Shown: one piece after another, positions 2,308-31,224 of the stretch
Layout of the letters: each line of letters opens with the position of its first letter
Numbering within the stretch: the first letter of the stretch is position 1
Assembly: GCA_001004665.1 (NCBI GenBank)
Contig: LCRO01000007.1
Span: 1 to 33,870 of the forward strand
DNA from: Candidatus Adlerbacteria bacterium GW2011_GWA1_54_10
Lineage (GTDB): Bacteria > Patescibacteriota > Minisyncoccia > Phycocordibacterales > SBAW01
DNA: 33,870 nt
Direction: 5' to 3'
Notes under the pieces: generated by a model
Seen by the model: only the letters and a program-made list of their open reading frames with translations
What the model was told of the DNA's origin: nothing
The model's database searches: none
Program-made: the position numbers and the translations under genes

Positions 2308-4277
2308 GTCAGCTCGAAATCGAGCTGTCGCATAGCCAGGTCGGCCGCAATCAGGCGCACTCGGACGGAATCTCCGAGTGCGTATTTCTTTTTCTTGCGC
2401 GCTCCGACAAGCGCATATTCTTTTTGTGAATAGTTGTAATAATCGTCTCGGAGAGTGCGTACATGCACAAGACCCTCCGCGGCGCTTTCTTTTTCTTCCA
2501 CGTACAGGCCCCACTCCGTCACGCCGGATATCACGCCGTCGAAAGTTTGTCCTATCTTATCCTGCATGTACTCCACCTGCTTATAGCGGACCGACTCGCG
2601 TTCGGCGTCTACGGCCCTTGCCTCCGCCTCGGATGCCTCGATGCACATTTTTTCGAGGTTGGCATATTCTTTGCGGGTTATAGGCTTACCATTCAGGTGT
2701 GATTCCAATATGCGGTGTGCCAGCATGTCTGGGTAGCGGCGTATCGGCGAGGTAAAGTGGGTGTAATACTCGAATGCGAGCCCGAAGTGCCCGATATTTT
2801 TGGTTGAGTATATCGCCTTTGCCATACTGCGGAGAGTTGCCGTGCGTATAAGGTGCTCCTCCGGCTTGCCTTCTATCTGTTTGAGTAATTTTTGAATGTC
2901 TTTAGTGGAGAATTTTTTCTGCTTATTCTTCCCGAATTCATATCCCACGGCGCGGACGAATGTCGCCAGCTCCTCGATGCGGTCGGACTTCGGTTCGTCA
3001 TGTATGCGGTAAAGAAAGATAAGATTCTTTTCCGGCACGTTTTCCGCGAGCTTGGAAATATAGCTTGCCACCTCGCGGTTAGCGAGCAGCATGAACTCTT
3101 CTATCAGTAAATTAGTCCCCATTCTTTCTTTTCGGCGCACGGACAGTGGCTTGCCGTTTTTATCCAGTTCGAAGTGCACCTCACTGTCGCCGAAGTCTAT
3201 TGCCCCTTCTTTTTCTCTATTCTTGCGCAAGATGCGGGCCAGATTTTGTAATATTAAGAGCTCATTTGCGAAGGTCAGACCTTCGCAAGCTTGCGAAGGT
3301 CTGACCTTCGCATCCGCAGTATCGAGCACCATCTGCGCCTCCTCGTATGTAAACCGCCTGTCGGAGCGGATTACGGATTTTTGGAATTTCCGTCCCAGCA
3401 CTTCGGCGTTTTTATTCATACGAAAGACTGCCGAAAAAGCGAGCCGATCCTCCCCTGGCTTTAGCGACGCCCCCCCCGCCGAGATCTCGTGCGGGAGCAT
3501 TGGAATGGTCGCATCGACGAGGTACACACTGGTGCCGCGGCGCCTCGCCTCGTCGTCTATGGCGGTTCCGGGTCGGCAGAAGAAAGTAGCATCGGCAATA
3601 TGCACGCCGATCTCAAACTCGCCGTTCGGCATCGCTACGCAGGAGAGAGCGTCGTCGAAGTCCTTGGCGTCCGCGGGGTCTATGGTAAAGGTCGGCGTGC
3701 CACGAAAGTCAGTTCGGCGCGCCGCCTCGGACTTAAGGATTTGGTCGTGATCGTGCCCCAGAGCCTGTGCCTCGGCCAAAACATCGGTTGGAAAATCCGT
3801 CCGAAAGCCGTGCTCCAGCACTATGGCGTTCATCTCTACCCTGTGCTCGCCCGCCTTGCCTAAGTGTTCTATTACTGTGCCTTTTGCGGCAATGCCGTCA
3901 AAAAAGTCCAGATGTATCAGAACTTTCTCTCCCTCGGCGAAATCGCGCCCTTTTATCTGTATGGGGCGGTAGAATTTAATATCGTCCGGCTGGACAAAGA
4001 CGGCACCTCGAGAACCCTGTTTTAAGGCGTCGCCTTGAATAATCGTTCCAACAAAATCTTCTTTCGCGCGCGTTATGATTTTTTTGACTTTTCCTTTGGG
4101 ACGGGGAAAAAGCGCCGCAAGTTCCACTTCCACCGTATCGCCGTTAAGAGCGCCCCCCAGGTCATCAGTCCGGATTTCGATGTCTTCTTTATCTTTCTCC
4201 CACGCTACATAACCCACCGCCTTTCGCGTGAGCTCTATGATGCCGGTTATGTGTTTTTTGCCCTTGATATTGCGCAT
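2304..4277 (-). CDS. rnr: Ribonuclease R / RNase II family 3'-5' exoribonuclease with C-terminal S1 domain
   Basis: Catalytic motif TIDPADAKDFDDALS, RNB domain (GGASLKPGEDRLAFSAVF; HFTSPIRRYPDMLAHR), C-terminal S1-like FDGVISGVTEWGLYVEEKESAAEGLVHV. Confidence 0.93.
   Translation of the reverse strand: MRNIKGKKHITGIIELTRKAVGYVAWEKDKEDIEIRTDDLGGALNGDTVEVELAALFPRPKGKVKKIITRAKEDFVGTIIQGDALKQGSRGAVFVQPDDIKFYRPIQIKGRDFAEGEKVLIHLDFFDGIAAKGTVIEHLGKAGEHRVEMNAIVLEHGFRTDFPTDVLAEAQALGHDHDQILKSEAARRTDFRGTPTFTIDPADAKDFDDALSCVAMPNGEFEIGVHIADATFFCRPGTAIDDEARRRGTSVYLVDATIPMLPHEISAGGASLKPGEDRLAFSAVFRMNKNAEVLGRKFQKSVIRSDRRFTYEEAQMVLDTADAKVRPSQACEGLTFANELLILQNLARILRKNREKEGAIDFGDSEVHFELDKNGKPLSVRRKERMGTNLLIEEFMLLANREVASYISKLAENVPEKNLIFLYRIHDEPKSDRIEELATFVRAVGYEFGKNKQKKFSTKDIQKLLKQIEGKPEEHLIRTATLRSMAKAIYSTKNIGHFGLAFEYYTHFTSPIRRYPDMLAHRILESHLNGKPITRKEYANLEKMCIEASEAEARAVDAERESVRYKQVEYMQDKIGQTFDGVISGVTEWGLYVEEKESAAEGLVHVRTLRDDYYNYSQKEYALVGARKKKKYALGDSVRVRLIAADLAMRQLDFELT
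3267..3312. repeat. 46-bp perfect palindrome inside rnr
   Basis: TGCGAAGGTCAGACCTTCGCA-AGCT-TGCGAAGGTCTGACCTTCGCA equals its own reverse complement. Encodes KVRPSQACEGLTF in frame on the rnr strand. Confidence 0.97.
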
Positions 4278-4707: not shown

Positions 4708-5064
4708 ATGGCAGAACAAGATCAGGATTTTTTGGAGTTTGTCGTTAAAGGGCTTGTTGATCATCCGGAAAGCATCAAAATCAGCCGCGTTGTGGATGAA
4801 ATGGGCGTGCTTTTGACCCTCGATCTCAATGCCGAGGACATGGGCAAGGTTATAGGCCGCAGTGGCAACACGGCGAAGGCCATCCGCACGCTTTTGCGCG
4901 TAGTGGGAATGAAGAACAATGCGCGCGTCAACCTTAAGATAAACGAGCCCGAGGGCGGCACGCGCGGTTCTGCGGATACCGGATGGGACGGCACGCATGA
5001 GGCGCCCGCCTCTCCCGCGATGAAGTCCGTCGACGAGGCGATGGAGGACCTCTCCAAGTTTTAA
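4708..5064 (+). CDS. khpA: KhpA/YlqC-family KH-domain RNA-binding protein
   Basis: DFLEFVVKGLVDHPESIKI...DMGKVIGRSGNTAKAIRTLLRV contains the KH GxxG-type loop (IGRSG). Lies between rpsP and trmD as is typical. Confidence 0.9.
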   Translation: MAEQDQDFLEFVVKGLVDHPESIKISRVVDEMGVLLTLDLNAEDMGKVIGRSGNTAKAIRTLLRVVGMKNNARVNLKINEPEGGTRGSADTGWDGTHEAPASPAMKSVDEAMEDLSKF

Positions 5065-5178
5065 GCGAAGCAAAAACCAAGTTTGAGAGAATGTTGGTAG
5101 GCGCGACGGCGCCGGACATAGAAAAATTTTCAGCAGAAAATTTTTTGCATTCGGTGCAAACTTGGTTTTTTGCGAAGC
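5065..5178. repeat. Copy 1 of a ~114-bp nested inverted-repeat element
   Basis: Arms AAAAACCAAGTTTG (5072-5085) / CAAACTTGGTTTTT (5157-5170), 14-bp perfect. Internal AAAATTTTCAGCAGAAAATTTT. Homologous to 20969-21080 in inverse orientation. Confidence 0.88.
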
Positions 5179-5182
5179 GTGT

Positions 5183-5842
5183 ATGAATTTCCATGTAATA
5201 ACGCTTTTTCCGGAGGTTATCGAGGCGTATGCTAATGTCTCGATTTTGGGGCGCGCTCAAAAAGAAAAAAAGATCAAAGTGATTGTGCATCAACTGCGCG
5301 ATTTTGCCGGAAATAAATGGGGCAAGGTGGACGAGAGGCCTTATGGCGGCGGCCCAGGCATGGTCTTGCGTGCGGAGCCTGTAATAAAAGCGGTGCAAAA
5401 GATACTAAAAACTAAAAATCCAAAACTGAAGACTAGGATTATTATCACTTCGGCTGGAGGGAAACCCTTGACCAATGCATACGCAAAGATCCTCGCAAAA
5501 AAACATCAAAATATAATTATAGTGTGCGGGCGATACGAGGGTATAGATGCGCGCGCGAAAAAAGTACTAAAAGCGGATGAGGTCTCGGCCGGACCCTACA
5601 TTTTGACCGGAGGCGAGCTACCGGCGCTCGCCATAGTGGACGCCGCCGCGCGGCAGATACCGGGCGTCCTCGGCAAATTCGAGTCGCTTGAGGAGGGCAG
5701 GGTCGCCAGCCACGACGTTTATACACGTCCGGAGATTCTTAAAGTAAAAGGGAAGTCGTATAGAGTCCCGAAGGTTTTGCTTTCGGGCCATCATGCCAAA
5801 ATAAACGCTCTGCGGCAGAAAAGGCGAAGCGCTCAAAAATGA
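5183..5842 (+). CDS. trmD: tRNA (guanine(37)-N1)-methyltransferase (true start ATG 5183, not 5162)
   Basis: MNFHVITLFPEVIEAY..., RPYGGGPGMVLRAEPV, ICGRYEG-type IVCGRYEGIDAR, TGGELPALAIVDAAARQIPGVLG. Confidence 0.96.
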   Translation: MNFHVITLFPEVIEAYANVSILGRAQKEKKIKVIVHQLRDFAGNKWGKVDERPYGGGPGMVLRAEPVIKAVQKILKTKNPKLKTRIIITSAGGKPLTNAYAKILAKKHQNIIIVCGRYEGIDARAKKVLKADEVSAGPYILTGGELPALAIVDAAARQIPGVLGKFESLEEGRVASHDVYTRPEILKVKGKSYRVPKVLLSGHHAKINALRQKRRSAQK

Positions 5843-20964: not shown

Positions 20965-20968
20965 TCGG

Positions 20969-21080
20969 GCTCCGAAAAAATCAAGTTTGCGCCGAACGCG
21001 GAAAATTTTCAGCAGAAAATTTTCCTACTTCCGGTGCCGTCGCGCCCAGAGACTTCTCTCAAACTTGATTTTCGCTTCGC
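20969..21080. repeat. Copy 2 of the ~112-bp nested inverted-repeat element (inverse orientation to copy 1)
   Basis: Arms AAAATCAAGTTTG (20977-20989) / CAAACTTGATTTT (21060-21072), 13-bp perfect. Internal AAAATTTTCAGCAGAAAATTTT. Reverse complement aligns along its length to 5065-5178. Confidence 0.88.
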
Positions 21081-21087
21081 TATCAGC

Positions 21088-30470: not shown

Positions 30471-30490
30471 ATCGCGAGTATCTAGAGGTT

Positions 30491-30513
30491 GTCTAGAGGT
30501 GACACCTCTAGAC
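30491..30513. repeat. RAYT-flanking palindrome, left copy
   Basis: GTCTAGAGGTG-A-CACCTCTAGAC, 11-bp perfect arms. Partial copy TCTAGAGGTT at 30481-30490. Confidence 0.95.
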
Positions 30514-31185
30514 AAGCGTTGGGGTGCGCGTACGGTAGAATTCCTGAGCATTACAAAGCATTTCAGTAAAATCGGGATTTGGATAAAATTCTCGCAACAT
30601 ATTACCGGTTATCGCACCCTCCGGCCGATTTTGGCCAAAAAAATCAATAAGGCTGGAATATTGATATTGAAACAATTTATTTTCAATTTTTTTTAATTCG
30701 CCGCTTCCGGTTTTCCATTGAGGTTCGAAAAGCTCTATCGGATTAAACAGCACATATGGCACGACTTGCTTGAAGTAAATATTGTCGGAAATATGCTTTG
30801 AGCGAAAAGGCTTTACAAACAAATTACCCACCCTTGCCCTTTTTACATTGAAGTACATCGTATAACCAGTGCTGAGCTTACGCATGAATTTTGTTATTCC
30901 TCCTTCTGTCAAGGCTTTTAAAATCAAATGAAAATGAGATGGCATCAGGCAGTAGGCTCCTATTGCAACAATAAGCTCTTTTCTGGGTAAGGATAATATT
31001 TCTTCGTGAGTTATGTCGCGATCAAAAGAACTGCGCTCGACAGGGGCAACATTATTGGCCAGATAAAGCATCTGTGTAAAACGCAAATAATCACTTGTTG
31101 TCTCAAAGACTTTTCTTTTTTCGACTCCGCGGCTATAGCAATGGAACCATTCATTAGGAGCAAGGGGAATACGCCGGTAGGTCAC
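30508..31185 (-). CDS. REP-associated tyrosine transposase (RAYT; Y1_Tnp / IS200-like HUH family)
   Basis: NEWFHCYSRGVEKRKVF, AYCLMPSHFHLILKA (HUH), FMRKLSTGYTMYFNVKRARVGNLFVKPFRSKHI, VVPYVLFNPIE. Stop codon lies inside the left palindrome. Confidence 0.9.
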   Translation of the reverse strand: MTYRRIPLAPNEWFHCYSRGVEKRKVFETTSDYLRFTQMLYLANNVAPVERSSFDRDITHEEILSLPRKELIVAIGAYCLMPSHFHLILKALTEGGITKFMRKLSTGYTMYFNVKRARVGNLFVKPFRSKHISDNIYFKQVVPYVLFNPIELFEPQWKTGSGELKKIENKLFQYQYSSLIDFFGQNRPEGAITGNMLREFYPNPDFTEMLCNAQEFYRTRTPTLV

Positions 31186-31201
31186 AAGGTAAGTATACCC
31201 T

Positions 31202-31224
31202 GTCTAGAGGTGACACCTCTAGGT
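31202..31224. repeat. RAYT-flanking palindrome, right copy
   Basis: GTCTAGAGGTGACACCTCTAGGT; perfect core CTAGAGGTG-A-CACCTCTAG at 31204-31222. Confidence 0.93.

Follow-up and report, generated by a model that had tools for sequence, protein, structure and literature searches.

The window, by which we mean the whole 33,870-nucleotide stretch of DNA analysed, carries khpA (4708-5064, forward strand; Pfam KH_KhpA-B) followed by trmD (5184-5842, forward strand; Pfam tRNA_m1G_MT), whose start was set by comparing relatives. The spacer between the two genes is almost completely filled by a 107 bp palindromic element, copy 1 (5071-5177, forward strand; covariance model match 5062-5182, E=1e-28). 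A second copy lies on the reverse strand at 20970-21074 (model match 20965-21083, E=4e-23), in the spacer of the convergent truB and ribonucleotide reductase small subunit genes. Copy 1 is 83% identical to the reverse complement of copy 2 (107 nt, E = 1e-25).

Copy 1 is predicted to fold into a three-way junction, with covariation supporting its outer stem and both hairpins, all read on the forward strand. The outer stem joins GCAAAAACCAAGTTTG (5070-5085) to CAAACTTGGTTTTTTGC (5157-5173). Hairpin 1 is GGCGC-GACG-GCGCC with a constant GACG loop (5100-5113), and hairpin 2 has an AT-rich stem and a constant AGCA loop (5121-5146). The minimum free energy is -45.6 kcal/mol (z = -5.6); copy 2 folds with z = -3.2. 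Terminal motifs of the form GNAG, here GAAG, are present at the 5′ (5067-5070) and 3′ (5174-5177) ends on the same strand.

A sequence-only reading had placed two copies at these loci, described nested inverted-repeat arms in copy 1 and reported a compensatory arm change between the copies (CCAAG/CTTGG versus TCAAG/CTTGA). All three claims held, the arms being borne out by the fold energy of copy 1 and the arm change confirmed in both copies. That reading had overlooked the third helix (hairpin 1), and with it the true three-way shape, as well as the GNAG motifs directly outside the outer stem. Its statement that no named family fits held for Rfam, which gave 0 matches above the gathering score in the window; eight related loci gave tRNAs only. 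Nothing singles out trmD among the contexts of the element. A second trmD-like gene in the same assembly (G000:C12:598-1278), 55% identical to that of the window, is either a paralogue or a contaminant (estimated assembly contamination, 4.5%).

Fold, ends and distribution of the family

Across copies, the junction comprises a variable outer stem with an inner extension and two hairpins whose loops, GACG and AGCA, are constant. With 20 copies aligned without constraint, 24 of 30 pairs showed two-sided changes. When 115 copies were aligned, 92.7% of cells paired (72.2% when shuffled), double changes numbered 653 (163 in shuffles), and two-sided changes were present in 29 of the 30 pairs. The larger alignment was fitted to the model and is therefore biased towards it, whereas the 20-copy alignment was not fitted. 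Sliding the pairing partners abolished the signal. Further copies and covariation past the first two, which the earlier reading had proposed to look for, were thus both found, the copies in the same genome and across the order.

The covariation is strong and of the RNA type, G-U pairs included. Stems vary and loops stay constant; the outer arms differ among copies by paired changes, leaving the loops and the direct GNAG ends as the constant parts. These ends take the form GNAG-C-stem ... stem-GCGNAG, with both GNAG motifs on one strand and the N often unlike between left and right. No classical target-site duplication was recognised at element copies; GNAG flanks both ends.

Variants with GACGG and CAGCAG loops adjoin or separate tRNA genes (L034, L061, L027, L028, and L060); their outer structure differs, and L060 has the two hairpins in swapped order. 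Three copies of G004 (L049, L050, and L058) contain a similar 60-75 bp insert (...CTCGGAATCAAAAGTAAAC...) that splits hairpins 1 and 2, possibly another mobile repeat nested in the element. Head-to-head pairs of copies, with 5′ ends facing and a few to ~30 bp apart, were observed in G004 (L039, L045, L046) and G016 (L223, L230).

A covariance model (R1) was built from 20 copies. The genomes are draft assemblies. The genome of origin (596 kb) gave eight model matches at E <= 0.1, and its locus C5:6142-6247 has the same ends and a similar fold with a different interior sequence. Matches were obtained in 33 of the 35 genomes of the genus, with 45 in G004 and 13 in G012. At E <= 1e-6, 94 of 297 genomes and 60 of 165 genera matched in a sample of the order. 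A phylum-wide sample yielded matches in 10 of 380 genomes, nine within the order (genome of origin included) and one outside. This sole out-of-order match in the phylum sample (G510:C65:1364-1480, E = 2e-10) may represent transfer or a binning error. In the genomes sampled, the family is nearly confined to a single order of Paceibacteria (Parcubacteria). Records with the strict core pattern were named Nomurabacteria, Taylorbacteria, Paceibacterota, Parcubacteria, Patescibacteria, or merely "bacterium". An exact search of IMG/VR with this strict core pattern gave no match and so no support for phage carriage. The literature searched, which lacks most subscription papers and preprints, contained nothing relevant on palindromic repeats in CPR/Patescibacteria. 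The family appears to be undescribed; earlier mention elsewhere is not excluded, and no dedicated IS/MITE library was compared.

Element sites in spacers and within genes

The khpA-trmD gap is only 4-13 nt in ten relatives. The element is present in this spacer in G007 and G027 in reverse orientation, and G004 has another palindrome there. Long open frames enclose roughly one in four of the 115 copies; a length-based criterion, which may let in a few spurious frames, gives 31. Nineteen copies were found in frame in genes recognisable by ortholog alignment, solved-structure alignment, or Pfam, the inserts being called by comparison with insert-free orthologs or solved structures. Host proteins include IF-2, a LepA-like GTPase (three genomes), RecG, an M50 protease (RseP-like), UvrC (four genomes), MnmA (three genomes, including the genome of origin), TsaD (two), PolA, RecJ (genome of origin), and a type IV coupling protein (T4CP; two copies in one gene). 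In-frame copies occur in both orientations, and several of the host genes, those of IF-2, MnmA, TsaD, UvrC, and RecJ among them, are essential. RuvC copies were left out of this count, since there the first conserved motif comes after the element, and L040 is called holA-like only, as Pfam gave no domain. Of six frames, 2.39 are open in non-coding copies, compared with 1.27 in shuffles. Pairing is as good in coding copies (93.0%) as in non-coding ones (92.6%). Inserts in CPR IF-2, UvrC, MnmA, TsaD, or RecJ may be repeat-derived and call for caution. The family also bears on the route by which reduced CPR genomes acquire protein inserts.

The LepA-like genes (L088, L249, and L253) share an identical insertion point and family. 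The copy in G021 has the opposite orientation to those in G023 and G026, which are identical to each other.

A cis-acting RNA maintained by selection for its effect on expression, such as a terminator, an attenuator, or an mRNA stabiliser, could account for the strong RNA-type covariation with G-U pairs, and for the many copies directly 3′ of genes, divergent flanks being rarest (6 of 51). However, the downstream gene is not shared, and the khpA-trmD spacer has both orientations. Copies lie within coding sequences, often antisense, and pair as well there as elsewhere. The element is also missing from the same spacer in relatives. No transcription data are available, and we consider this explanation unlikely.

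For 51 of the 115 copies the nearest relative lies in the same genome, against a shuffled mean of 9.6 and maximum of 25, and in G012 the infB (IF-2) and rseP copies share 99% identity. Dispersal, presence or absence at sites, per-genome clustering, conserved fold and ends, and in-frame insertion are shown by our data. The sequence-only reading had offered selection on structure or a mobilising enzyme; this was supported, and the second branch is favoured because of occupied and empty sites, per-genome clustering, near-identical copies in unrelated genes, in-frame insertions in both orientations, and the lack of a common gene context. The element is thus probably best read as a mobile palindromic repeat rather than a regulatory RNA, and copy 1 is likely to be a member of a ~107-bp non-autonomous mobile palindromic family of one order of Paceibacteria. 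Against mobility, the transposase has not been identified and movement has never been directly observed.

We infer that a trans-acting enzyme would recognise the folded single strand, through its loops and GNAG, and move the element. As such an enzyme would read the fold, only foldable copies would spread. Coding insertions would persist because most copies can be read through without a stop in one or more frames and are placed in loops or linkers; the host protein would tolerate ~35 extra residues, an inference made without protein data. Copy 1 would be such an insertion, into a spacer once a few nucleotides long.

Sister species with unlike palindromes at shared sites

Only one sister pair, G012 and G001 (~80% nucleotide identity in flanks), was compared in depth. 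At infB, rseP, the holA-like gene, recG, and one intergenic site, G012 has the element and G001 a different palindrome at the identical position. These five G001 palindromes have the same kind of GNAG ends, and their stretches give z values of -2.8 to -6.0. Three more sites were unclear and one was not mapped. Such differences between sister species at one site are not expected under a simple insert-once model. An initial interpretation, in which the infB and rseP copies of G012 had newly inserted into empty sites, was abandoned, since G001 holds another palindrome there.

The G001 palindrome of infB and rseP defines family B. A third site in G001 also carries it; G012 lacks the family and has yet another hairpin at that site. 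Within G001, family B copies differ by paired arm changes (AAAAATCC/GGGTTTTT, AAAGATCC/GGGTCTTT, and AAAAGCCC/GGGCTTTT). Family C has the core CGTCCCCT...CCTGCAG and arms that vary by site yet remain complementary; at one orthologous site, neither arm is the same in G012 and G001, yet pairing is kept. Four sites hold family C in both species, and the family is present also in G021, G025, and G028. The UvrC loop is occupied by the three-way element in four species and by other palindromes in six. At the RecJ site, G012 has a family C palindrome and G001 none, the G001 stretch keeping one CGGAG; this single case would fit an insertion next to a motif already present. Because bulges lower the score, most family-A copies escape a scan for long perfect inverted repeats, and the GNAG counts of that scan were not used.

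Palindromes also lie back to back within an RNase R-like (RNB) gene of the window (3266-3312; TTGCGAAGGTCAGACCTTCGCA / TTGCGAAGGTCTGACCTTCGCA). Similar GGTCNGACC palindromes occur in G012.

The same sites have been refilled or rewritten with different palindromes, and our data do not distinguish target preference, exchange, and template switching. Under template switching, replication would copy one arm onto the other and produce paired changes without selection on the fold. The paired arm changes of family B in G001, the arms of family C that differ between orthologous sites and remain complementary, and the good pairing of coding copies all agree with this. However, dispersal, constant loops, and constant ends remain unexplained, such that template switching accounts for only part of the pattern, and we consider it less likely than not.

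Slot exchange supposes a limited set of GNAG-C ... GCGNAG sites at which an enzyme reading both structure and ends swaps palindromic cassettes from several families in and out. It refines the mobile-element reading and does not exclude it. In its favour are the five sites with the element in G012 and a different palindrome in G001, the third family B site with another hairpin in G012, and the varied occupants of the UvrC loop. However, strong target preference with independent insertions could yield an identical picture. The unclear and unmapped sites and the single sister pair compared in depth also weigh against it, as do the four family C sites that keep their family in both species. On balance, we regard slot exchange as possible and less likely than not. 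A bolder version posits a cassette-exchange system with in-frame slots in essential genes, in which unrelated palindromes would interchange through an unidentified structure-reading enzyme, frame and foldable hairpin being kept. We regard this version, too, as possible and less likely than not.

Comparison with known repeat systems

For the mobile palindromic repeat that we favour, the nearest known kind by analogy is the Rickettsia palindromic elements (RPEs; PMC10969869), although no RPE sequences were compared. RPEs are dispersed palindromes of ~100-150 bp whose mover is unknown (Ogata et al. 2000, 2002, summarised in PMC10969869). The element falls in this size range (107 bp) and is likewise palindromic and dispersed, with 8 to 45 copies in several genomes. 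Both are found in spacers and in frame in unrelated genes, with several families per genome and no known mover. In contrast to RPEs, the element belongs to an unrelated host lineage, has a three-way fold with GACG and AGCA loops and GNAG at both ends, and occupies sites with different palindromes at the same position in sister species. In the tagged RPE families, CGTC stands at one end (PMC3733652). In-frame palindromic insertions into protein genes are, in the literature searched, peculiar to Rickettsia and relatives, and what moves them has yet to be identified. An unrelated second lineage, with up to dozens of copies per genome, conserved ends, replacement at the same site, and many sequenced species, provides strong comparative material for identifying the mover.

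MITEs, including ERIC and Correia elements (PMC10969869), are similarly small, non-autonomous, dispersed, and bounded by inverted repeats, with occasional in-frame fusions. Here, however, the outer arms are not constant, no target-site duplication was recognised, and no cognate transposase was found; the lack of constant terminal inverted repeats rules out classical MITE membership. The ends of IS200/IS605 elements carry hairpins and short cleavage motifs, on one strand and at both ends. The element resembles them in its hairpins and short motifs at both ends on one strand, but it has no internal transposase open frame and no linked full-length element was found.

REP, BIME, and REPIN sequences (PMC3733652) share with the element a GNAG-type tetranucleotide by a hairpin, head-to-head pairs, dispersal, and some copies in genes. 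REPs, however, are single hairpins of 20-40 bp tagged at one end (PMC3733652), as opposed to a 107 bp three-way junction, and no RAYT was found to be linked to the element or to track its presence (32 Y1 loci; 35 genomes of the genus). The element fails REP membership because of its length and the absence of a linked transposase.

REP/REPIN-type movement, in which a RAYT (Y1 HUH transposase) would cut at GNAG beside a hairpin, remains a possibility. In known REPs, GTAG degenerates to GYAG and similar, and the E. coli RAYT cuts GTAG (PMC3733652); both fit the motif. GNAG at both ends on one strand, head-to-head pairs as in REPs, and Y1_Tnp genes in 26 of the 35 genomes of the genus are further support. 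In contrast, G010, G016, G020, and G034 have elements and no detected Y1_Tnp, G002 has nine Y1_Tnp and only one weak element match, 0 elements lie within 1.5 kb of 32 Y1_Tnp loci, and the element is 3-4 times REP length with a three-way fold. A linked or co-occurring Y1/RAYT transposase is therefore unsupported; divergent RAYTs below threshold and MAG gaps are not excluded.

The window itself contains a Y1_Tnp (RAYT-like) gene (30508-31185, reverse strand, within 30490-31222) that scores 22.4 bits, slightly under the Pfam cut-off. Two identical copies of TGTCTAGAGGTGACACCTCTAG flank this gene, and the arrangement looks like a separate REP-type unit.
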